Translations under genes and position numbers: made by a program
Source: Marinobacterium profundum
Lineage (GTDB): Bacteria; Pseudomonadota; Gammaproteobacteria; Pseudomonadales; Balneatricaceae
Reading direction: 5' to 3'
Assembly: GCF_001528745.1 (NCBI RefSeq)
Contig: NZ_BCNS01000146.1
Location: forward strand, 1-35,162
Length of the DNA: 35,162 bases
Shown here: positions 1,226 through 29,412 of the stretch, piece after piece
Layout of the letters: each line of letters starts with the position of its first letter
How positions within the stretch are numbered: the stretch's first letter is position 1
Notes under the pieces: generated by a model
Told to the model about the DNA's origin: nothing
The model's input: the letters and a program-made list of their open reading frames with translations, nothing else
Databases searched by the model: none

Positions 1226-1954
1226 TCAGAGCAGCCGCAGCCCCTGTATAAGTACCAGCACAGCTCCGAGCAGCGAAATCGACAATAGCAGCGGCTTGGC
1301 GCTCTGCTTGTCGACGTAGCGATCGACGCGTCGTGCGACAAAAACCCCGGCCACCAGGCCCGGCGCCATTTTCAGCGTTAGCAGCAGGGACTCCAGCGGC
1401 AGATTGCCGGTGAGTGCCAGCATGATTAGCGTGATGGGCAGACCTGCCAGAAAAAAGGCTGCCAGCTCGCTGCGGGCCGTCAGCACATTCGACTCCTGAT
1501 ACACCAGTGCCATGGGGGGCCCGCCCACCGAGGTTGCGGTGCCGATAAGGCCGGAGAAAAAGCCGGCAATAGACAGCGAGCGCGTCGACATGGTGATTTT
1601 GAAGGTATTGCGCCAGCTAAGTGCGACGGACAGCAGCAGAGTGCTGCCCAGAATCAGACTTAGCACCGCAGGCGATACCGATGCCAGCAGCAGCGCCCCC
1701 AGCCAGGAGCCCGGAATACGTCCGATCAGCGCCGGCATCAGGCGCCGCCATGACAGGTGATGCCGCCCCTTGGCGACCATGTAACCGGACAGCAGTGCGC
1801 CCAGAATAATCAGTGATACCGGGATATAGAGCGGGTCTATCAGAAACAGCAGCGGCGCTGCGACCAGGCCAAAGCCAATGCCGACGACGCCCTGCAGTGC
1901 AATGCCGACGGTCACGATAAGCAGGGCCAGCAGGTCCCAGAGACTGTAGATCAT
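1226..1954 (-). CDS. TSUP family (TauE/SafE, DUF81) membrane transporter
   Basis: The 242-residue product is almost entirely hydrophobic, with about eight predicted membrane segments. It begins with a helix (LLALLIVTVGIALQGVVGIG) whose glycine-rich end is typical of the TSUP family, and a second related block (FSGLIGTATSVGGPPMALVY, near residues 133-152) gives the internal two-repeat layout of the family. TSUP proteins move small anions such as sulfite, sulfoacetate or other organosulfur and carboxylate compounds across the inner membrane; the substrate cannot be told here. It lies convergent to trmA and about 130 bases from the DUF3726-like gene on the same strand, so it might be read through from that locus, but its own TATAAT box (2012-2017) argues for separate expression. 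The ribosome site is poor. Confidence 0.85.
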   Translation of the reverse strand: MIYSLWDLLALLIVTVGIALQGVVGIGFGLVAAPLLFLIDPLYIPVSLIILGALLSGYMVAKGRHHLSWRRLMPALIGRIPGSWLGALLLASVSPAVLSLILGSTLLLSVALSWRNTFKITMSTRSLSIAGFFSGLIGTATSVGGPPMALVYQESNVLTARSELAAFFLAGLPITLIMLALTGNLPLESLLLTLKMAPGLVAGVFVARRVDRYVDKQSAKPLLLSISLLGAVLVLIQGLRLL

Positions 1955-2082: not shown

Positions 2083-2832
2083 TTAGCGTCCGCCTGCGCC
2101 CTGGCGCGACGCTTCGGTATTTTCGACCAGCACCTTTTCGCCGAGCTGGTTAAAGGTCTGCCACAGGGCTTCGCTGATCTCGATGCCGCTCTCCAGAGTG
2201 GCCAGACCAGTAGCGGCGAAGGTGGCGGGCTCCACGCTGCGACAGCTCACCCGGTCATTCGGGCTGGACATCAGCTGCGCCGCTATATTGACCCGGTCGC
2301 TGCAGATCAGCGTCATGGTCTGTTTTTCCAGCGGACTGCAGTCGGCTTTGAGCACGGCTTCGCTGTAGCGCGGATACTGCTCGCCGGCGCTGATGCTGGC
2401 AACGTGTTCGGTGGCCGGCTGAGTGCCGTTCTGCCAGTAGGCCATCATGCTGATGCCGCGTCGGCCACAGTCGGCCAGCAGCTTGAGAATGAACTTGCGG
2501 TTGTGGCAATGCTGCACCTTGAGCGTGGCTATGCCGGCCTTGAGCGCCTTGGCGTGGGCCAGATCGAGCACCAGCGCCAGGCTGTTCAGTGCGCTGCGTC
2601 CGTGACAGTCGACGATGGCGGAACTGGCGTCTTCGAACAGCAGTTCTACCGGAGCCTTGTCCTCATCGTTGACGTAGGCCAGGGCGCGTTCGAGTTCACC
2701 GAAACCCTGTTCACCGTGCATTTCAAGCCAGCTGACCATCTGGGCGGCATCTTCATAGGTGCCGACGAAGTAGTTCATGCCCTCGAAGGAACGCTTGAGG
2801 GTCGCATTCAGTTCGTTCAGTGAAATACGCAT
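2083..2832 (-). CDS. DUF3726-like protein of unknown function
   Basis: The 249-residue soluble product has no signal peptide or membrane segment. Its N-terminus (MRISLNELNATLKRSFEG, then a run ending VSWLEMHGEQGF) looks like DUF3726, a bacterial domain of unknown function of about 80 residues; I rely on recall of the family pattern. The middle (ALKAGIATLKVQHCHNRKF, near residues 95-113) resembles the substrate-binding part of the Ldh_2/malate dehydrogenase-like fold, but this is tentative and no catalytic set can be shown. Its ATG shares one base with the TGA of the 576-residue gene (TGATG), so the two are translationally coupled and probably work together. The pair lies behind the LysR gene and opposite the aldehyde dehydrogenase/BCCT genes, suggesting a role in the same pathway. 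Confidence 0.7.
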   Translation of the reverse strand: MRISLNELNATLKRSFEGMNYFVGTYEDAAQMVSWLEMHGEQGFGELERALAYVNDEDKAPVELLFEDASSAIVDCHGRSALNSLALVLDLAHAKALKAGIATLKVQHCHNRKFILKLLADCGRRGISMMAYWQNGTQPATEHVASISAGEQYPRYSEAVLKADCSPLEKQTMTLICSDRVNIAAQLMSSPNDRVSCRSVEPATFAATGLATLESGIEISEALWQTFNQLGEKVLVENTEASRQGAGGR

Positions 2833-4562
2833 CAGCGGGCGTCCTCGGTGTCGATGGCCGGAGTCAGGGGCAGGAACCAGTCGTCGTCAAATGGCTGGCC
2901 TATATCATCCAGCAGCGGTGCGCCCTGGAACATGGTGTTGCGCACCCACAGGCGGGAGCGGGGATCGAACTTGCTGACCCCGAAGAACGCCAGCTTGCAG
3001 CGCAGCAGGTGCATGGGCAGCACATCCTGATCCAGCAGGTTGGCCTGAATATCGCCATAGAGGCTGTGGCGCAGGCTCTGGATGCGACGCACTATGCCGC
3101 GGTATTCCGGTTTCAGAAACAGGAAGTAGGCGCAGCTGTGTTCGGGGTGCTGCGCGGCATAGTCGCACAGGCCCTGGTAACACTGCACAACGCGCAAACC
3201 AATGCCCAGGGGCATTTGTTTGGCACGGCCGCAATCGAGTTCGCTGCCACCCAGGCGCGGTTCCTGTTTCTCCTGTGAACGGTACCAGAAGGTTTCGGTG
3301 GCCCGGGGAGCGCTGAAGTCGATATCCAGCGCCCAGCGATAGCGCTCTTCTATCAGTGCTTTCAGCTCCGACACCGACATGCCGGGTGCCAGATCCTGGT
3401 GTTCGCCGACGCAGGTATAGTCTTCCAGTTCGTCCACCAGGTCCGGGTAGACCTCTAGCAGGATGGAGTTGACCATCTCCTGACCCTGCAGGCTGCAGTG
3501 CTGTTCGGCCCAGGCGATCAGGCTGTTCCAGTCGCGCAGCGGCTGCCCGGCCAGATGGCTTTTTAGCGCCGCCAGATCTTCGATAACCTGCTGGTTCTTG
3601 CCGGTCTGCCAGGCATCTTCGGTGACGATTTCCACGGTGTGCTGATGTGCCCGGGCGGCCAGGGTCCTGAAGCGCGCCAGGCGCTCGGTGCCGGGTACGC
3701 CAAAGGCGCGGATGCGGGCCAGGGCCAGTTCGCGCATCTCGATCCAGCGGCTGATCAGCAGCGGATGATTGATAAGGTAGGGTGCCATGCCAAGGCCCGT
3801 GGAGTTGCCTATGCCGAAATAGCGCTTGATCTGTGGCTGCATGGCCACGGCCTGCTCAGGCGCACGGGCTTTGGCGATATGCTCGACCTGGGTCAGGCTG
3901 AAGTTGCGCAGCATGAAGCAGGTAAACATTTCCGCCGCAAAGGGGCGGGCAAAGTCGCTGTGCCTGGCGGCGACCTTTTGCCAGTCGGCCATGCCCAGCT
4001 TGCCACTGCCATAGACCGCGGTGGTGCGATACAGATAACCGACCTGGCTAATGCGCTTTAGGTCCGGCTGTGCGCCGCTGGCGAGCTGATCGACCACATA
4101 GTCGAAGTTGCGGGCGCTGCGGTTGGCGCGCGAGAGAACAAAGACGCGGGCATCAACGCGGCCGGCTTCCTGTTTGGGTACGTTCTGGCGCAGCTGCTCG
4201 ACGTAGGCCTCATCGACTTCGCCTTCACATAGCGCCATGGTCAAATCCCACTGGGTGGCGATTACGCGGTCGTTGCGGTCTTCAGGCGCCAGGTAGCTGG
4301 AAAACAGTACAAAGCTGTAGAGGCAGGTGGGTGTCTGAATGCGGTAGACCACGGTGCCGTAGCCGTCGTTGTCCAGCTCCAGCCGCACGGCCTCGATCTT
4401 CCAGCGCTCGCGCATGATGCGTCGCACCAGAGTGCGCATAAAGCTCAACCGGCTCTGGTGCAGGCTGCCCAGGCGTTCCAGGTCCATGACCTGGCTGGCG
4501 GGTCTGAGGGCGAGTGCGCCGGGGCCCTTGAGTTCGGCCTGGATGACAGCAGGATTGATCAT
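2832..4562 (-). CDS. Unrecognised 576-residue cytoplasmic protein
   Basis: I do not recognise this protein. It is 576 residues, mixed polar and hydrophobic, with no signal peptide, no clear membrane helix, no Walker motif and no obvious cofactor motif. Conserved-looking spots include MRRIMRERWKIE-like basic N-terminal text near residues 46-57, GIGNSTGLGMAPYLINHPL near 251-269 (a glycine-rich loop that could bind a nucleotide or phosphate), and LRCKLAFFGVSKFDPRSRLW near 520-539. A good ribosome site (GAGGA, eight bases before ATG) supports the start at 4562. It is coupled by one shared base to the DUF3726-like gene. Upstream is a 401-base gap with a dyad (4735-4754) and a heptamer array, then LysR on the same strand. 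Partnership with the neighbouring catabolic genes is inferred from position only. Confidence 0.85.
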   Translation of the reverse strand: MINPAVIQAELKGPGALALRPASQVMDLERLGSLHQSRLSFMRTLVRRIMRERWKIEAVRLELDNDGYGTVVYRIQTPTCLYSFVLFSSYLAPEDRNDRVIATQWDLTMALCEGEVDEAYVEQLRQNVPKQEAGRVDARVFVLSRANRSARNFDYVVDQLASGAQPDLKRISQVGYLYRTTAVYGSGKLGMADWQKVAARHSDFARPFAAEMFTCFMLRNFSLTQVEHIAKARAPEQAVAMQPQIKRYFGIGNSTGLGMAPYLINHPLLISRWIEMRELALARIRAFGVPGTERLARFRTLAARAHQHTVEIVTEDAWQTGKNQQVIEDLAALKSHLAGQPLRDWNSLIAWAEQHCSLQGQEMVNSILLEVYPDLVDELEDYTCVGEHQDLAPGMSVSELKALIEERYRWALDIDFSAPRATETFWYRSQEKQEPRLGGSELDCGRAKQMPLGIGLRVVQCYQGLCDYAAQHPEHSCAYFLFLKPEYRGIVRRIQSLRHSLYGDIQANLLDQDVLPMHLLRCKLAFFGVSKFDPRSRLWVRNTMFQGAPLLDDIGQPFDDDWFLPLTPAIDTEDAR

Positions 4563-4809
4563 TGTTGTTATCCTCGTACAGCTGAAAATAATGCCCCGGC
4601 GATCCCGCTATTTTGCGGTTGTGGGCCTGTGCGCAGAAACGGGTGCCCGCCAAGCTGGGTGGCGGCAATATCCGTTTGATGGTGAGTGAATACTCATCCG
4701 TTTCAGCTATGCGTACAAATCAGTTCGTTCAATCATTTGATAAGATTTTCAAATAACGTCCGCTTAAATAACGAATAACACTTATTCCAATCTTCCGCTT
4801 CCGCTTCCG
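4563..4809. other. Upstream region of the 576-residue gene; no gene seen
   Basis: This stretch carries no convincing coding frame. From about 4690 to 4800 it is much richer in A and T than its surroundings, as expected for a promoter region reading leftward into the 576-residue gene. It contains the ATTTGA...TCAAAT dyad described separately and ends in a short TTCCGC hexamer run (about 4793-4810) that leads into the heptamer array. Confidence 0.5.
4735..4754. promoter_or_regulatory. Inverted repeat, candidate operator
   Basis: ATTTGATAAGATTTTCAAAT is a 20-base dyad with perfect six-base arms (ATTTGA/TCAAAT) around an eight-base spacer, in an AT-rich stretch about 180 bases upstream of the 576-residue gene. 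It fits the size of a LysR-type or other dimer site. The regulator is not known; the adjacent LysR is one candidate. Confidence 0.35.
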
Positions 4810-4963
4810 CTAGCCACTAGCCACTAGCCCCTAGCTTCTCGTCCCTCGTCCCTCGCATCTCGTCCCTCGTCCCTCGCATCTCGTCCCTCGCATCTCGTCC
4901 CTCGTCCCTCGCATCTCGTCCCTCGCATCTCGTCCCTCGTACCTCGCCCCTCGCCCCTCGTCC
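4810..4963. repeat. Tandem array of 22 seven-base units
   Basis: The 154 bases divide exactly into 22 heptamers of the form CTMGNNN. The first four are CTAGCCA, CTAGCCA, CTAGCCC and CTAGCTT. The rest are mostly CTCGTCC and CTCGCAT in a partly ordered higher pattern, ending CTCGTAC, CTCGCCC, CTCGCCC, CTCGTCC. The array ends at the base before the LysR stop codon (CTA on this strand, TAG when read), and that stop itself matches the first three bases of a unit. It lies in the 3' untranslated part of the LysR transcript. Confidence 0.95.
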
Positions 4964-5860
4964 CTACTGCGCAAGCCGCCCCTCGCTTTCGAGAATGAAA
5001 TCCACCAGGGCCTGGGCCGGCGGCGTCAGGGAACGGTCGGCCTGGCTGAGGATGCCGATCTGGCGTATCACCTCTGGATCGGCGAGCGGGATGAATTTCA
5101 GATTCGGGTTGTCCTGGGGGAAGGCGAACCAGGGCAGGGTAGTGATACCCATACCGGCATCCAGCATGGCAATCAGCGAGATCATGTTGGAGATGTAGAA
5201 TTGGGCGCTGTGGATCAGCTCTTCGGCGGCGCTGTTGGCCAGTAGCCGAGTGGTGCCGTTGCTGATCTGGCGGTGTCCGCGCAACTGCTTCCAGTTCAGG
5301 CGCGTTTCATTGGCCAGCGGATGGTCACGGTGACAGACAACGCCGACGCGGTCTTCCCACACAGGTATAAAGGTCTTGTCGCTCTGGGCTTCCCACAGGC
5401 TGGCAATGCCAAAATCCACCTGCCTGTTGTCCACCATTTCCAGCACCGTATCGGAGTTGGCGTCAAAGATGCTCAGGTGCAGCTCCGGCGTATTGGACAT
5501 AAAGCGCTGCAAAATGTCGGGCAACATGCGGCTGGCGATTGAGGGCACTGCAGCGAGGCGCAGGTGCCCTGTCTTGTGTTGCACCAGCAGCGCCATGTCC
5601 TGGGCGATACGGTCATGGTGGGCAATCAGTTCCTTGGCCTGGGGCAGAAAGTGCTGCCCGAAGGGCGTGAGTTCTGCCTTGGCGGTCTTGGCGTTGCGTT
5701 TCTCGAACAGACCTTCCCCCAGCTTGTTCTCCAGATCCCGTATCGACAGCGAAATGGCCGGCTGGGTGCGATGGGCCTTTTCGGCGGCGGCGTGGAAGCC
5801 CTTGAGTTCGGCCACCCAGACAAAATGGCGTAGCTGCGCAATCTTCAGTTCGGCCAGCAT
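4964..5860 (-). CDS. LysR family transcriptional regulator
   Basis: The 298-residue product has the normal length for LysR regulators. The N-terminal winged helix-turn-helix covers about residues 5-65 (QLRHFVWVAELKGFHAAAE, then TQPAISLSIRDLENKLGEGLF). The rest is the two-lobed periplasmic-binding-like effector domain, seen for example in HLRLAAVPSIASRMLPDIL at its start. An AAGGA site lies nine bases before the ATG. The gene is divergent from the aldehyde dehydrogenase gene, 90 bases away, the classical layout in which LysR controls both its own gene and the neighbouring operon. It probably senses the substrate or an intermediate of the adjacent pathway. Behind it on the same strand, across a repeat array, lie the 576-residue and DUF3726-like genes. 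Confidence 0.93.
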   Translation of the reverse strand: MLAELKIAQLRHFVWVAELKGFHAAAEKAHRTQPAISLSIRDLENKLGEGLFEKRNAKTAKAELTPFGQHFLPQAKELIAHHDRIAQDMALLVQHKTGHLRLAAVPSIASRMLPDILQRFMSNTPELHLSIFDANSDTVLEMVDNRQVDFGIASLWEAQSDKTFIPVWEDRVGVVCHRDHPLANETRLNWKQLRGHRQISNGTTRLLANSAAEELIHSAQFYISNMISLIAMLDAGMGITTLPWFAFPQDNPNLKFIPLADPEVIRQIGILSQADRSLTPPAQALVDFILESEGRLAQ

Positions 5861-5872
5861 AGTAAGTTTTCC

Positions 5873-5926
5873 TTATCGAATGATATTTACTATTAATTTT
5901 TATTATTAATCTGCCCGGTCTAGTAT
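5873..5926. promoter_or_regulatory. LysR/aldehyde dehydrogenase control region
   Basis: The 90-base divergent gap is very AT-rich. It holds TATC-GAAT-GATA (5874-5885), which with the preceding T fits T-N11-A, and a longer dyad ATTAAT-N7-ATTAAT (5892-5910), which also fits T-N11-A. A TAGTAT -10 box (5921-5926) for the aldehyde dehydrogenase gene sits downstream, so the second dyad overlaps its weak -35 position (TTTTAT, 5898-5903), as expected for an activator site. Assignment to this LysR is inferred from position. Confidence 0.5.
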
Positions 5927-5950
5927 GCAAGCAACGAATAGGAGGTGCAT

Positions 5951-7393
5951 ATGTCTGACGCAATTTACGGTAACTACATTGATGGCAACTGGGTTGAGGG
6001 TAGCTCAAGCGTTGCCAATATCAGCCCGTCCGATATCAGTGATCTGGTTGGGCACTATGCACAGGCCGATGCCGCTCAGACTGAGCTGGCGATTGAAGCC
6101 GCCGTACGTGGCCAGGAAGCCTGGGAGCAGAGCGGTCTGGAACAGCGTTATTCGGTGCTGATGGCCGTTGGTGACGAGCTGATTGCACGCAAGGATGAGC
6201 TGGGTCGTCTGCTGGCCCGCGAAGAAGGAAAGACCCTGGCCGAAGGCGCCGGTGAAGTTTACCGCTCTGGTCAGTTCTTCCACTATTACGCCGCTGAAGT
6301 GCTGCGCCAGATGGGCGAAACCGCTGATTCTGTGCGCCCAGGTGTGGAAATCGAAACCCGCCGCGAACCTGTTGGCGTGATCGGCATCATTACACCCTGG
6401 AACTTCCCGATGGCAACCGGTGCCTGGAAAATTGCGCCGGCGCTGGCCTTTGGTAATGCCGTTGTCTTCAAGCCGGCAAACCAGGTTCCGGCCAGCGCCT
6501 GGGCGCTGACCGAAATTATCTCCCGCCAGGGACTGCCCGCAGGCACCTTCAACCTGGTCATGGGTCCGGGGTCCGCGGTGGGCGATACGCTGATTCACTC
6601 CAAGCGTATCAACGCACTGACCTTCACAGGTTCGCTGGAAACCGGCCGCAAGGTCGCCGCAGCCACCGCGGTTAATCTGGTCAAGTGCCAGCTGGAAATG
6701 GGCTCCAAGAACGCTCTGGTCGTTCTGGATGATGCGGATCTTGAGCAGGCCGTCGAATGTGCCGTCAGCGGCGCCTTCTTCGGTACCGGGCAGAAGTGCA
6801 CCGCGTCTTCGCGCCTGATTGTGACCGAAGGTATTCATGACCGTTTCGTGGACGCCGTGATCGAGCGTCTGAAGCTGATTCGCGTCGGCAACCCGCTGGA
6901 AGAAGGCGTGCATATAGGTGCCGTAGCCGATGCCCGTCAGCTGGAGCAGAACCTGCGTTACGTTGAACTGGCCAAGCAGGAAGGTGCCCGCCTGGTGTTT
7001 GGTGGCGAGCGTATCCAGGCGTCTACCGAAGGCTACTACATGCAGCCGGCGCTCTTCGTCGACAGCACCAACGCCATGACCGTTAACCGCGAAGAAGCCT
7101 TCGCGCCCCTGGCCTGCGTGATCAAGGTGAAGGATTTCGAGGAAGCCCTGGCGACTCTGAATGACACTGAGTTCGGCCTGACCGGCGGCATCATGACCCA
7201 GTCGCTGAAGTACGCCAGCGAATTCAAGCGCCGCGCCAAGACCGGTTGCGTGATGGTGAACCTGCCAACAGCCGGCACCGATTACCACGTGCCCTTCGGC
7301 GGTCGCAAGAATTCCAGCTTTGGCCCGCGGGAGCAGGGCAGCTATGCCCGCGAGTTCTACACCGTCGTCAAGACCACCTATATCCGCGCCTGA
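5951..7393 (+). CDS. NAD(P)-dependent aldehyde dehydrogenase
   Basis: The 480-residue enzyme oxidises an aldehyde to its carboxylate with NAD(P)+. All core motifs are present: the oxyanion-hole Asn in TPWNFP (about residue 151), the cofactor-pocket KPANQVP, the general base Glu in QLEMGSKN (about 249), and the catalytic Cys in GQKCTASSRLIV (about 283). The GSKNALVVLDDADLEQA and TGQKCTASSR text is most like the alpha-ketoglutaric semialdehyde/2,5-dioxovalerate dehydrogenase branch, though substrate cannot be set by motif. I start at ATG 5951, which sits five bases after a perfect GGAGG ribosome site; a GTG six bases earlier lies inside that site. It is first in a plus-strand run with the M19 protein, BCCT transporter and RidA, probably under LysR control. 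Confidence 0.93.
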   Translation: MSDAIYGNYIDGNWVEGSSSVANISPSDISDLVGHYAQADAAQTELAIEAAVRGQEAWEQSGLEQRYSVLMAVGDELIARKDELGRLLAREEGKTLAEGAGEVYRSGQFFHYYAAEVLRQMGETADSVRPGVEIETRREPVGVIGIITPWNFPMATGAWKIAPALAFGNAVVFKPANQVPASAWALTEIISRQGLPAGTFNLVMGPGSAVGDTLIHSKRINALTFTGSLETGRKVAAATAVNLVKCQLEMGSKNALVVLDDADLEQAVECAVSGAFFGTGQKCTASSRLIVTEGIHDRFVDAVIERLKLIRVGNPLEEGVHIGAVADARQLEQNLRYVELAKQEGARLVFGGERIQASTEGYYMQPALFVDSTNAMTVNREEAFAPLACVIKVKDFEEALATLNDTEFGLTGGIMTQSLKYASEFKRRAKTGCVMVNLPTAGTDYHVPFGGRKNSSFGPREQGSYAREFYTVVKTTYIRA

Positions 7394-7427
7394 TCGAGCA
7401 CCTGATCCGGTGTCGGTGCTGTTTTGC

Positions 7428-7446
7428 AGCCCGGCGCCGGGCTTTT
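7428..7446 (+). terminator. Terminator-like hairpin between aldehyde dehydrogenase and M19 genes
   Basis: AGCCCGGCGCCGGGCT is a 16-base palindrome that folds to a six-pair GC-rich stem with a GCGC loop, followed by TTT. It lies about 35 bases after the aldehyde dehydrogenase stop. The T-run is short, so it may be a partial terminator lowering expression of the downstream genes, or simply a 3'-end stabiliser. Confidence 0.55.
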
Positions 7447-7494
7447 ACTCGCCCTTAATTATCTGTCTCTTACCTGTTTTGCGGGGGCCATCCG

Positions 7495-8484
7495 ATGCAT
7501 AACGAACTGATAGTGATCGACGGTCTGCAGTATTCCCATTGGGATCGCGGCATTTTCGAACAACTGCGTGAAGGCGGTGTGACTGCAGTACACGTAACCA
7601 TCGTCTACCACGAAAACGCCCGTGAAACTCTGACCCGTCTGGGAGAGTGGAACCTGCGTTTCGAGCAGCACGGCGATCTGATCATGCCGGTGCGCAATGC
7701 CGGTGATATCAGGCGCGCCAAGGAACTGGGCAAGGTCGGCATTATATTCGGCGCCCAGAATTGCTCCCCGATCGAGGACGAAATCGCCCTGATCGAAGTG
7801 TTTCGCGAACTGAATCTCATGATCATGCAGCTGACCTATAACAACCAGAGCCTGCTGGCGACCGGTTGTTATGAGTCCGACGACAGCGGTTTGACCCGCT
7901 TCGGCAAGCAGGTGGTCGGCGAGATGAACCGCGTCGGCATGATTGTGGATATGTCCCACAGCGCCGAGCGCAGCACACTGGAGGCTATCGAGTATTCGCA
8001 GCGCCCGATCGTGATTTCCCACGCCAACCCGGATTTCTTCCACGAAGCCAAGCGCAACAAGTCCGACAAGGTGCTGCAAGCGCTGGGCGAATCCGGCGGA
8101 CTGCTGGGCTTCAGCCTGTATCCGTTCCATCTGAAGAACGGCTCGGACTGCAGTCTGGATGATTTCTGCGACATGGTGGCACGCACCGCCGACATCATGG
8201 GTATCGAGCAGATAGGCATAGGTACCGACCTGTGTCAGGACCAGCCGCTGTCGGTGCTGGAATGGATGCGCAATGGCCGCTGGTCCAAGGTCATGGACTA
8301 CGGCGAAGGCTCTGCTGCCAATTCACAGTGGCCGCAACCGCTGTCCTGGTTCCGTGACAGCCGCGACTTCCCCAATATCACCGCAGGGCTGCTCAAACGC
8401 GGTTTCAGCGCCGAGGATGTGGCGCGGATTATGGGGCTTAACTGGCTCAACTTTCTCGATCAGGGGTTGCAGCCCCAGGGCTGA
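7495..8484 (+). CDS. M19 (renal dipeptidase-like) family protein with altered metal site
   Basis: The 329-residue product has the M19 amidohydrolase barrel and is close in pattern to the P. aeruginosa dipeptidase-like protein near the dimethylglycine/carnitine genes (recalled similarity). Classical M19 dipeptidases bind two zinc ions through an N-terminal H-x-D, a bridging Glu, two His and an Asp. Here the N-terminal site reads IDGLQY (Leu11 and Tyr13 where His and Asp are expected) and the bridging Glu is Gln88 in FGAQNC. The two later His remain (His156 in MSHS, His177 in ISHANP), as does Asp246 in GIGTDLCQ. It may bind one metal or act on something other than a dipeptide. A GGGGG run seven bases before ATG serves as ribosome site. 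It sits between the aldehyde dehydrogenase and BCCT genes. Confidence 0.85.
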   Translation: MHNELIVIDGLQYSHWDRGIFEQLREGGVTAVHVTIVYHENARETLTRLGEWNLRFEQHGDLIMPVRNAGDIRRAKELGKVGIIFGAQNCSPIEDEIALIEVFRELNLMIMQLTYNNQSLLATGCYESDDSGLTRFGKQVVGEMNRVGMIVDMSHSAERSTLEAIEYSQRPIVISHANPDFFHEAKRNKSDKVLQALGESGGLLGFSLYPFHLKNGSDCSLDDFCDMVARTADIMGIEQIGIGTDLCQDQPLSVLEWMRNGRWSKVMDYGEGSAANSQWPQPLSWFRDSRDFPNITAGLLKRGFSAEDVARIMGLNWLNFLDQGLQPQG

Positions 8485-8505
8485 AATCCACTGAAAAGGT
8501 GACTC

Positions 8506-8519
8506 TTCCCACGTGGGAA
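8506..8519. promoter_or_regulatory. Perfect 14-base palindrome before the BCCT gene
   Basis: TTCCCACGTGGGAA lies between the M19 stop and the BCCT ribosome site, seven bases before AGGAGG. It could be an operator half-buried in the operon, or an RNA hairpin that affects translation of the transporter gene. No T-run follows. Confidence 0.4.
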
Positions 8520-8536
8520 TCTCTCAGGAGGCTAGC

Positions 8537-10114
8537 ATGAATAACAACAATCCGGCCCCGGCAGCGCACGCCAATGCGTCGCTCCCCAAGCAAAAACTGC
8601 TGGCAGATGTCGATCTGCCAGTGTTCTTCCTCAGCGGCGGCGCTTTGCTACTGTTCGTCATCTTCGCCTTGTACGATATCGAGCTGATGTCGGCCTGGGT
8701 CAACAGCGCCTTTGCGGCCTCGACCAAGATGTTTGGCGCCTACTGGCAGGTGCTGCTGTTGCTGACTTTTGTCGTTGGCCTGTGCCTGGCGATTGGTCGC
8801 ACCGGTGCCGTGGTGCTTGGTGGCCTCAAAGCACCGGAGATCTCCACCTTCAAGTGGATCTGCATCATCATGTGCACCCTGCTGGCGGGCGGCGGTGTCT
8901 TCTGGGCCGCGGCTGAACCCATGGCTCACTTTACCTCGCCACCCCCGCTGTTTGCCGGTGCCGGCAATGAAGCGGGTAGCGCGCAGGCGGCCTACAATGC
9001 GCTGGCGCAGAGCTTTATGCACTGGGGCTTTCTGGCCTGGGCTATCCTCGGCAGTCTGACCGGCATCGTCTACATGTACCTGCACTATGAGAAGGGACTG
9101 CCGCTCAAGCCGCGTACCCTGCTGTACCCGGTGTTTGGTAATCGTGTGATGACCGGGCCTTTCGGTACCCTAGTCGATTCCTGCTGCGTGCTGGCGGTGG
9201 TAGCCGGCACAGTGGGACCCATAGGCTTTCTCGGTCTGCAGGTCAGCTTCGGACTGGAAAAGCTCTTTGGCATTCCGGATACCTACAGCACCCAGGTCGC
9301 TATCCTGGTGGGTCTGATGGCGATCTATACCCTGTCCGCCGTCAGCGGTGTGACCAAAGGTATCCAGTTACTCAGTCGCGCCAACGTTATTCTGGCGGTC
9401 ATTCTGATGGCCTTTATCCTGGTCTTTGGGCCTACGGCCTTTATCATCGATGGCTTCCTGCAGGGCTTTGGTCTCTATCTGGACAAGTTCATTCCGATGG
9501 CTACCTTCCGTGCAAGCCCGGGCTGGCTCGACTGGTGGACGGTGTTCTTCTGGGGCTGGTTCCTGGGATACGGCCCGCTGATGGCGATGTTCGTGGCACG
9601 CATCTCCCGTGGTCGCACTATCCGCGAGCTGGTGCTGCTGATCTCTGTTGTGGCGCCGGTGATTACCTGCTTCTGGTTCACCATTGTCGGTGGCAGCGGT
9701 CTGGCATTTGAACTGGCCAACCCCGGGGTCATCTCCGAGCCCTTCACTGGTTTCAACCTGCCGGCGGCCTTGCTGGCGATCACTGAACAGCTGCCCATGG
9801 GCTTTGTGATCTCGGTGCTCTTCCTGATCCTGACCACCATCTTTGTGGCCACCACCGGTGACTCCATGACCTATGCGGTATCCATGGTCATGACCGGCAC
9901 CGACCATCCGCAAAGTGCGGTGCGGGTCTTCTGGGGCATCATGATGGGTGTAGTGGCGGCGCTGCTGATCTCCATCGGCTCCGGCGGTATCTCGGCGCTG
10001 CAGTCCTTTATCGTGGTAACCGCCGTACCTGTATCTCTGGTGCTGCTGCCTTCCCTGTGGACGGCACCCAGGATTGCCCTGCAGATGGCGCGTGAACAAA
10101 AGCTGATTGATTAA
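8537..10114 (+). CDS. BCCT family transporter (betaine/carnitine/choline type)
   Basis: The 525-residue inner-membrane protein has about 12 membrane helices and imports trimethylammonium or similar zwitterionic compounds, usually driven by sodium or proton gradients. Family marks include GGGVFWAAAEPMAHFTSPP near residues 116-134 and the BCCT signature block WWTVFFWGWFLGYGPLMAMF near 333-352, followed by the conserved ARISRGRTIRE. It lacks long cytoplasmic tails such as those used for osmotic sensing in BetP, so a catabolic uptake role is more likely than pure osmoprotection. I start at ATG 8537, five bases after a perfect AGGAGG; an upstream in-frame GTG would run through that site. Choline, betaine, carnitine or taurine-like substrates are all possible. 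Confidence 0.93.
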   Translation: MNNNNPAPAAHANASLPKQKLLADVDLPVFFLSGGALLLFVIFALYDIELMSAWVNSAFAASTKMFGAYWQVLLLLTFVVGLCLAIGRTGAVVLGGLKAPEISTFKWICIIMCTLLAGGGVFWAAAEPMAHFTSPPPLFAGAGNEAGSAQAAYNALAQSFMHWGFLAWAILGSLTGIVYMYLHYEKGLPLKPRTLLYPVFGNRVMTGPFGTLVDSCCVLAVVAGTVGPIGFLGLQVSFGLEKLFGIPDTYSTQVAILVGLMAIYTLSAVSGVTKGIQLLSRANVILAVILMAFILVFGPTAFIIDGFLQGFGLYLDKFIPMATFRASPGWLDWWTVFFWGWFLGYGPLMAMFVARISRGRTIRELVLLISVVAPVITCFWFTIVGGSGLAFELANPGVISEPFTGFNLPAALLAITEQLPMGFVISVLFLILTTIFVATTGDSMTYAVSMVMTGTDHPQSAVRVFWGIMMGVVAALLISIGSGGISALQSFIVVTAVPVSLVLLPSLWTAPRIALQMAREQKLID

Positions 10115-10199
10115 AGGCAGGGGAGTGCGGGTGGCTGTCACAGGCCGCCGCATCTCTCTGTATGCACTTCTAAAATACGACTCGGGAGCCCCTGGGCTT

Positions 10200-10580
10200 A
10201 TGAAACAGATTGTCAAAACCGACCTGTATGCCTCCAAGGCGCCGCTGGAATGGGCGGTAATCGGTAACGGAACCCTTTACACAGCACAGATTCCCATCGA
10301 CACGGCCGGTCAGGTTGTCGAGGGTGGTATTGAAGCCCAGAGCCGTCAGACGATGGATAACCTGAAACACACCATCGAGGCTGCAGGCCTAGGCATGCAG
10401 GATGTGACCCAGGTGCTGATCTACGTTACGGATCGCGCTTTTCTGCCGGTATTCAATCAGGTCTACGCGCAGTATTTCGACGCACCTTATCCCAACCGGG
10501 CAGCCATGGTAATTGCGGGTCTTGCCCGTGAGGAAATGCTGGTCGAAGTGGTGGCCTATGCGGCCGTCCCGAGCGTCTGA
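10200..10580 (+). CDS. RidA/YjgF/UK114 family enamine-imine deaminase
   Basis: The 126-residue product has the standard RidA length. RidA proteins hydrolyse reactive enamine and imine intermediates to ketones and ammonia, as trimers in the cytoplasm. The pattern includes LYTAQIPIDTAGQVVEGG, QSRQTMDNLKHTIEAAGLG, and the C-terminal YPNRAAMVIAGLAREEMLVEVVA, where the family normally has PARxxV(x)xLPxxxxVEIE. The Arg in PNRAA aligns with the catalytic Arg, but the usual 'LP' is replaced by 'LA', as in RidA paralogues of catabolic operons. Start at ATG 10200 is chosen because earlier in-frame text (from 10107) overlaps the BCCT gene and does not resemble the family. It is last in the locus, before a strong terminator. 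Confidence 0.9.
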   Translation: MKQIVKTDLYASKAPLEWAVIGNGTLYTAQIPIDTAGQVVEGGIEAQSRQTMDNLKHTIEAAGLGMQDVTQVLIYVTDRAFLPVFNQVYAQYFDAPYPNRAAMVIAGLAREEMLVEVVAYAAVPSV

Positions 10581-10625
10581 TCAGTAGCGTTAAATGGTTG
10601 GCGATATTGTGATCATTTTTGCGTA

Positions 10626-10657
10626 CCGCCGCTCCCCTGGGGGAGCGGCGGTTTTTT
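10626..10657 (+). terminator. Rho-independent terminator after ridA
   Basis: A 12-pair GC-rich stem (CCGCCGCTCCCC with GGGGAGCGGCGG) is followed by six T. It closes the plus-strand aldehyde dehydrogenase-M19-BCCT-RidA group and lies 46 bases after the ridA stop. Confidence 0.93.
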
Positions 10658-18295: not shown

Positions 18296-18358
18296 CTAGC
18301 TTCTAGCTTCTAGCTTCTAGCTTCTAGCTTCTAGCTTCTAGCTTCTAGCCCCTAGAGC
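18296..18358. repeat. Tandem array of nine seven-base units (CTAGCTT type)
   Basis: Seven identical CTAGCTT units are followed by CTAGCCC and CTAGAGC, 63 bases in all. The array ends five bases before the stop codon (18364-18366) of the minus-strand gene, so it lies in that gene's 3' untranslated part. CTAG is normally the rarest tetranucleotide in such genomes, and it occurs here nine times in 63 bases. Confidence 0.95.
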
Positions 18359-19408: not shown

Positions 19409-19566
<158 letters not shown>

Positions 19567-29362: not shown

Positions 29363-29397
29363 CTCGAACCTCGAACCTCGAACCTCGAACCTCGAAC
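29363..29397. repeat. Tandem array of five seven-base units (CTCGAAC)
   Basis: Five exact CTCGAAC units lie between the uvrB stop (29355-29357) and the stop of the convergent PilZ gene (29413). It fills nearly the whole gap between the two genes. Read on the minus strand the unit is GTTCGAG. Confidence 0.95.
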
Positions 29398-29412
29398 CTC
29401 TTGCCCCAGGCT

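Follow-up and report, generated by a model that had tools for sequence, protein, structure and literature searches.

A LysR-controlled operon of Marinobacterium profundum with a probable role in homarine catabolism

Which compound is broken down, and by which steps, at a locus that joins an aldehyde dehydrogenase (ALDH), an altered M19 amidohydrolase, a BCCT transporter and a RidA protein to a 576-residue protein of no recognised family and its DUF3726 partner? The question is posed by contig NZ_BCNS01000146.1 of Marinobacterium profundum, analysed here as one stretch of 35,162 nucleotides (the window), in which these genes lie together with a LysR-family regulator. The original prediction, made from the sequence alone, had proposed that the locus serves the import and catabolism of a nitrogenous zwitterion resembling an osmolyte, and co-occurrence of the genes over Gamma- and Alphaproteobacteria supports that proposal. 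We consider it likely that the locus is a LysR-controlled operon by which homarine (N-methylpicolinate), a nitrogenous compound plentiful in seawater, is taken up and broken down along the route set out below taken as a whole.

A conserved gene unit around the 576-residue protein

On the reverse strand, the gene for the 576-residue protein is joined to that for the DUF3726 protein by a TGATG overlap (stop at 2834-2832, start at 2832), which bears out the translationally coupled pair described in the original prediction. The forward unit runs in the predicted order (ALDH, M19, BCCT and RidA, each recognised by Pfam) and is closed, as predicted, by a strong terminator consisting of a hairpin and a T-run (Table 1). 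The LysR gene had been placed between two divergent units. Instead, it lies some 400 bp upstream of the 576/DUF3726 pair on the same reverse strand, and only the ALDH unit is divergent from it.

To place this arrangement among other genomes, we scanned genome_contigs, which yielded at least 582 confirmed relatives of the 576-residue protein, and retained 80 loci (L and G numbers are our labels for loci and genomes). Among 57 genomes of relatives that were searched, 22, the window's included, carried the 576 gene, and these supplied a further 21 loci. In the resulting 101 loci, some of them on contigs too short to show every gene, tblastn searches with the proteins of the window detected M19 in 95, DUF3726 in 93, ALDH in 90, LysR in 86, BCCT in 81, RidA in 69 and TauE in 20 (19 of these 20 no more than 4 kb from the 576 gene). 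The set was then enlarged to 132 loci with 20 stretches from a phylum-wide sample of 398 genomes and 11 plasmid records. All 132 were picked for carrying the 576 gene, and three are duplicates; the counts describe the companions of that gene and not the frequency of the partners elsewhere. With several queries per family and a limit of 11 kb from the 576 gene, we found DUF3726 in 126 loci (four of them, L164, L173, L174 and L175, by position only, their neighbours having been entered as queries), M19 in 121, ALDH in 108, LysR in 104, BCCT in 89 and RidA in 76; the best match fell below 40% identity in 29 of the LysR, 6 of the BCCT and 3 of the ALDH counts, which may be other members of those families. 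The set co-occurs over Gamma- and Alphaproteobacteria, whereas a lack of co-occurrence elsewhere had been named as the result that would speak against the original prediction. We conclude that this is a conserved gene unit whose co-occurrence exceeds chance, common to hundreds of marine and soil bacteria.

Gene order varies within the unit. LysR is divergent from ALDH-M19-BCCT-576-DUF3726-RidA in six Pseudomonas loci (L065-L067, L071, L073 and L102) and in most Marinobacter and Halomonas loci, and the window's own arrangement recurs in three further Pseudomonas loci (L037, L038 and L041). The BCCT gene is replaced by ProU-type betaine ABC genes in Aminobacter and Shinella. In Mesorhizobium sp. 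131-2-1 a single protein covers both the 576-residue and DUF3726 proteins, the only such fusion among the 132 loci, suggesting from sequence that the two may form a physical complex.

A different origin for part of the unit would be a housekeeping trio of 576, DUF3726 and M19 proteins, acting in the repair of damaged metabolites and later recruited into catabolic operons. Alphaproteobacterial copies of the 576 gene at L154, L156 and L169, some of them the genome's second copy, do lie near housekeeping-type genes without ALDH, LysR or BCCT, and a remote branch of the family reaches rhizobia and a haloarchaeon. Nevertheless, the 576-residue protein was present in only 29 of the 398 sampled genomes, and of the 132 loci 108 also hold ALDH and 121 M19; we therefore regard this origin as most improbable. 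The remote branch (29-33% identity to the window) comprises L173 (Natrinema), L174 (S. meliloti pSymA) and L175 (Neorhizobium), and has a hypothetical protein after the 576 gene in the place of DUF3726. The copy in the haloarchaeon Natrinema is near BCCT and ALDH genes, and that of S. meliloti near a dipeptidase and an ABC transporter.

Association with N-methylglutamate dehydrogenase

In Ruegeria TM1040, Aliiroseovarius, Shinella and Phaeobacter P42 (the last reached via a SoxA search and not an independent draw), the unit adjoins sarcosine-oxidase-type genes and an AraC/GlxA-type regulator. To separate N-methylglutamate dehydrogenase (Mgd) from sarcosine oxidase, we built a SoxA tree whose references were proteins neighbouring gmaS-mgsABC of the methylamine pathway; it is a quick tree with several long branches, L033 among them, and L187 and L188 were labelled sarcosine oxidase from their neighbours only. 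Eleven SoxA proteins lie beside or near the unit. Six fell in a clade with alphaproteobacterial gmaS-linked proteins and four in a second clade holding gmaS-linked proteins of the window's family. By their placement in the tree, 10 of the 11 neighbouring SoxA-type proteins are thus assigned to Mgd.

The association was also seen at the level of genomes. In the phylum-wide sample, a SoxA with a score of more than 1000 bits to the TM1040 query was found in 19 of 29 genomes with the 576-residue protein and in 29 of 369 without it, with a threshold that was chosen after viewing the list and that, with this query, would miss the gammaproteobacterial Mgd clade (only ~34% identical to the alphaproteobacterial Mgd that served as query for the tree). 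These 19 are all of the 576-bearing genomes outside the window's class, and none of the 10 inside that class is among them. In the window's own genome, the only SoxA at E<=1e-200 groups on the sarcosine-oxidase side.

According to one article (PMC13390433), Mgd participates in homarine catabolism, a statement for which that article cites a 2026 Nature Microbiology paper. Because the unit adjoins Mgd and Mgd is so placed, homarine is the substrate we favour. The same two observations make it doubtful that the locus is undescribed and its steps not assigned to a known pathway, as the original prediction had it; the pathway is probably already in print.

An operon that feeds the methylamine pathway (GmaS-Mgs-Mgd) would also explain the association with Mgd and would not be specific to homarine. 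The likeness is real in that Mgd-type genes and an AraC/GlxA-type regulator, the gene kinds found in methylamine clusters, adjoin several of our clusters. In contrast to that pathway, gmaS and mgs were not in the stretches shown for L171, L177, L179 and L189; gene tables in PLSDB are not complete, and the stretch of L171 begins within the sox genes. Within the window's family, GmaS was rarer in genomes with the 576-residue protein (2/21) than in those without it (8/15), and the window's genome has no GmaS above the cut-off. We rejected the unit as an appendix of the methylamine pathway on the content of these stretches, and a methylamine-feeding operon of any kind seems very unlikely.

Three further loci hold genes of these kinds. 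L226 (genome G027) and L220 (G014) each have a relative of the Ldh_2 reductase close to sarcosine-oxidase/Mgd-type genes and apart from the 576 unit, which agrees with a link between reductase and Mgd; the SoxA of G014 at L220 falls outside the gmaS-linked clades. On a Pseudosulfitobacter plasmid (L184), Mgd-clade sox genes are near hutG (N-formylglutamate deformylase), a formimidoylglutamate deiminase gene and purU.

RidA or a DpkA-type reductase

Within 8.5 kb of the 576 gene, 74 of the 132 loci held RidA, 22 held an Ldh_2-family reductase, 36 held neither and none held both (Fisher P = 9e-10, with the relatedness of the loci ignored). The exclusivity was unchanged with a limit of 11 kb or no limit (RidA 76, reductase 22, both 0) and after removal of the three duplicate contigs (71, 22 and 0 of 129). 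The tree of the 576-residue protein needs at least 9 switches between RidA and reductase, and in Marinomonas the reductase of L048 stands at the place of RidA in the sister locus L024. The window's unit is of the RidA kind. Arg100 of RidA, which we take to be of the type of the conserved substrate-binding Arg of the family, is kept in 92% of 74 rows.

The nearest PDB relative of the TM1040 reductase, the one tested, is DpkA (1WTJ/2CWF; 184 bits vs 136 for the next), described in PMC6110843 as an imine reductase producing N-methyl amino acids. Since no locus holds both RidA and a DpkA-type reductase, these data suggest that the two are alternative treatments of one imine.

Whole genomes of the window's family were compared as well. 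A reductase relative at E<=1e-30 was present anywhere in the genome in 5/5 genomes with a RidA-less unit vs 2/16 with a RidA unit (Fisher P = 0.001), although three of the five belong to one genus and their best identities reach only 41-42%. Of the 15 genomes of the family that lack the unit, four likewise matched the reductase (34-38% identity). At the stricter threshold of E<=1e-80, the reductase was found in 7 of the 29 genomes with the 576-residue protein vs 1 of the 369 without it in the phylum-wide sample.

The proposed route and its candidate enzymes

The gene sets, the Mesorhizobium fusion, the placement of Mgd in the tree and the exclusivity of RidA and reductase within loci are observed; we infer the substrate, the end products in the window and the following steps, in this order. 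The BCCT transporter would take up homarine, and the 576-residue and DUF3726 proteins together would open its pyridinium ring at C5-C6, giving an N-formyl-N-methyl amino-acid semialdehyde. ALDH would oxidise the aldehyde of the ring-opened product, and the altered M19 hydrolase would then remove formate, leaving an N-methyl enamine or imine of 2-oxoglutarate. In the RidA branch, to which the window would belong, hydrolysis of the N-methyl imine would yield 2-oxoglutarate and methylamine; in the DpkA-type branch (some roseobacters, Shinella and some Halieaceae), the imine would be reduced to N-methylglutamate, which Mgd would demethylate. By our own carbon count, conversion of homarine to N-methylglutamate costs ring C6. 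Formate-handling genes near the unit in some lineages agree with the proposed deformylation: a formate dehydrogenase alpha subunit encoded near the cluster scored above its cut-off in L084 and L061 (a Marinobacter protein, L097, scored below it), and purU is near the cluster in Shinella.

The original prediction lacked a first catalytic step and offered the unassigned pair for it; the pair is still the best candidate, and the 576-residue protein is probably the ring-opening enzyme. This protein matched no family in Pfam or NCBIfam and had no sequence relative in the PDB by profile (best E 0.87). The structure prediction that had been suggested as a check gave a confident AlphaFold2 model (64 sequences; pLDDT 88, pTM 0.90), for which Foldseek, covering the PDB and viral models, returned no match at E<=0.001 (best 0.46 in the PDB and 0.39 in BFVD); a weaker model likewise had no match in the PDB. 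Most of the polar residues that stay invariant in this protein when the remote branch is counted in are Arg; there is one His and no Cys among them, a composition that does not suggest a metal or Fe-S centre. Kinship between the 576-residue protein and Ldh_2 was rejected (hhalign 0.6%), and a 576-DUF3726 match of 99.4% was discarded as an artefact of the fused Mesorhizobium row.

The first half of the DUF3726 protein aligned with the N-terminal domain of Ldh_2 proteins of the studied loci (hhalign 96.1%, E 2.9e-9). Unlike DpkA and other members of the Ldh_2 family, it resembles that domain only: the alignment spans 132 columns and does not cover the NADPH-binding part. It had no PDB sequence match. 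DUF3726 was not named in the papers found by a literature search, which is weak evidence since subscription papers were mostly outside its coverage; searches for homarine, with the same limit, found no title naming it.

The best NCBIfam models for ALDH were 2-oxoglutarate semialdehyde (2,5-dioxovalerate) dehydrogenases, below their cut-offs. The M19 domain spans residues 19-322 of the 329-residue protein (Pfam 1.1e-81), and the alteration described in the original prediction is a family trait: in 119 rows (the window and 118 loci), HxD has become LxY, with Leu for His in 118 and Tyr for Asp in 115. A Gln of the protein aligns with the Glu of GliJ dipeptidase. We take the His and Asp of HxD and the bridging Glu to be the M19 metal ligands. 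The best PDB relative is 2I5G, annotated as an amidohydrolase, which has the same LxY and Gln changes in the alignment.

A number of observations weigh against the homarine operon as proposed. The assignment to homarine would follow from gene context, ring opening was assigned to the 576-residue protein by elimination and no cofactor motif was recognised in it, and the M19 protein is without the three presumed canonical metal ligands, so that its role as a deformylase is a guess. One of the 11 neighbouring SoxA proteins (Hellea, L096) lies on the sarcosine-oxidase side, that of L033 sits at the end of a long branch, and G007, G014, G022 and G034 each have a second SoxA outside the gmaS-linked clades. 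An independent-pairs sign test of the RidA/reductase exclusivity was not significant (median P = 0.25); 22 of the 29 genomes with the 576-residue protein had no reductase at E<=1e-80; G013 and G027, the two RidA-unit genomes of the family with a reductase relative (59-60% identity), hold RidA and the reductase at separate loci; G371 has two units, one of each kind; and the reductases of two further loci scored best in NCBIfam against L-sulfolactate dehydrogenase, below its cut-off. GmaS scored above its cut-off in only 1 of 16 RidA-type genomes of the window's family, so released methylamine would mostly miss the GmaS route. Ruegeria pomeroyi is reported to draw homarine down fast (PMC12817926), but its growth on homarine was poorer than on trigonelline (PMC8269262).

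Alternatively, the locus might degrade another N-methylated betaine or cyclic zwitterion (for example N-methyl-proline, a trigonelline-like or a glycine-betaine-type compound) whose breakdown likewise leads to an N-methyl amino acid. Hellea pairs the gene set with a SoxA of the sarcosine-oxidase side, and L033 joins it with a Rieske oxygenase and sox genes (a second ALDH, a CoA-transferase III and an Ldh_2 reductase are also present there). The M19 relative 2I5G points the same way if it is PA5396 of the glycine betaine/dimethylglycine region of Pseudomonas aeruginosa, as we take it to be; that name was absent from the best 8 of 22 matching papers. However, 10 of the 11 neighbouring SoxA rows group with gmaS-linked Mgd, a demethylase lies outside the core, and neither Pfam nor NCBIfam identified a TgnA/TgnB-like oxygenase in the operon; we judge another such substrate unlikely. 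Catabolism of glycine betaine, choline or carnitine as such was rejected, since no demethylase belongs to the core and most SoxA proteins next to the unit fall with Mgd.

The homarine reading can be set beside the systems it most resembles. Homarine catabolism was reportedly described in Nature Microbiology in 2026 (doi 10.1038/s41564-026-02313-7). The homarine operon, reportedly named homABCDER and made up of five genes and a regulator, would match ALDH, M19, the 576-residue protein, DUF3726 and RidA or Ldh, together with LysR. The window's operon is probably a RidA variant of those homarine-catabolic operons. The trigonelline pathway, TgnABCDE, includes formamide and ALDH steps. It is a bacterial opening of an N-methylpyridinium ring (Perchat et al. 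2018, as cited in PMC8269262); Pfam and NCBIfam searches with the locus proteins did not bring up the TgnA/TgnB pair, no TgnA/TgnB query being run and the rest of the genome not searched. The published homarine operon involves Mgd according to PMC13390433, and Mgd is linked to the 576 family at large, whereas the window's genome has RidA, no Mgd recognised by SoxA search and tree, and no DpkA-type reductase at E<=1e-30.

Table 1. Features of the locus in the window
Feature	Coordinates	Strand	Basis and remarks
TauE/SafE-family exporter, possible accessory gene	1226..1954	-	Pfam TauE 6.8e-25
DUF3726 protein, 249 aa	2083..2832	-	Pfam PF12525 1e-17; Ldh_2 0.0045
576-residue protein, family and fold unmatched; candidate ring-opening enzyme	2832..4562	-	
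Tandem array, 14/21/35-bp units	4829..4965	.	LysR-576 gap
LysR-family regulator	4964..5860	-	Pfam HTH_1 and LysR_substrate; divergent from ALDH
Aldehyde dehydrogenase (ALDH)	5951..7393	+	Pfam Aldedh; putative C5 semialdehyde oxidation
Altered M19 (dipeptidase-like) amidohydrolase	7495..8484	+	Pfam M19 1.1e-81; putative deformylase
BCCT transporter	8537..10114	+	Pfam BCCT; putative zwitterion import
RidA-family protein	10200..10580	+	Pfam 2e-22; putative N-methyl imine hydrolysis
Intrinsic terminator	10625..10657	+	12-pair stem, 10 G-C, loop 4, T-run

Other features of the window were noted. The imperfect tandem array, with units rich in CTCGTCCCTCG, takes up part of the interval that separates the LysR stop from the start of the 576 gene. 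The TauE/SafE exporter gene lies downstream of DUF3726, and export of a product is a possibility. Perfect 7-bp tandem repeats (CTAGCTT, AGCCGTA and CTCGAAC, in 4 to 8 copies) are present at 18296-18349, 19510-19540 and 29363-29400, respectively.

With the pathway probably in print, the parts likeliest to be new are possibly the enzyme with the unmatched fold and the either-or of RidA and imine reductase. A bolder proposal, which we hold only tentatively, is that the 576-residue and DUF3726 proteins are a new pyridinium-ring-opening enzyme with a fold absent from the PDB and that RidA-type operons follow a hydrolytic branch, ending in 2-oxoglutarate and methylamine and not in N-methylglutamate; homarine would then be a source of methylamine for the carriers of such operons, namely this window, Oceanospirillales, Pseudomonas, Marinobacter, Halomonas and Vibrio. 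If the assignment to homarine is right, the 576/DUF3726 pair would mark homarine consumption across hundreds of genomes and would probably represent a new enzyme fold that cuts an aromatic N-heterocycle, and it would depend on which of the two an operon uses, RidA or imine reductase, whether the nitrogen of methylamine is set free or kept.

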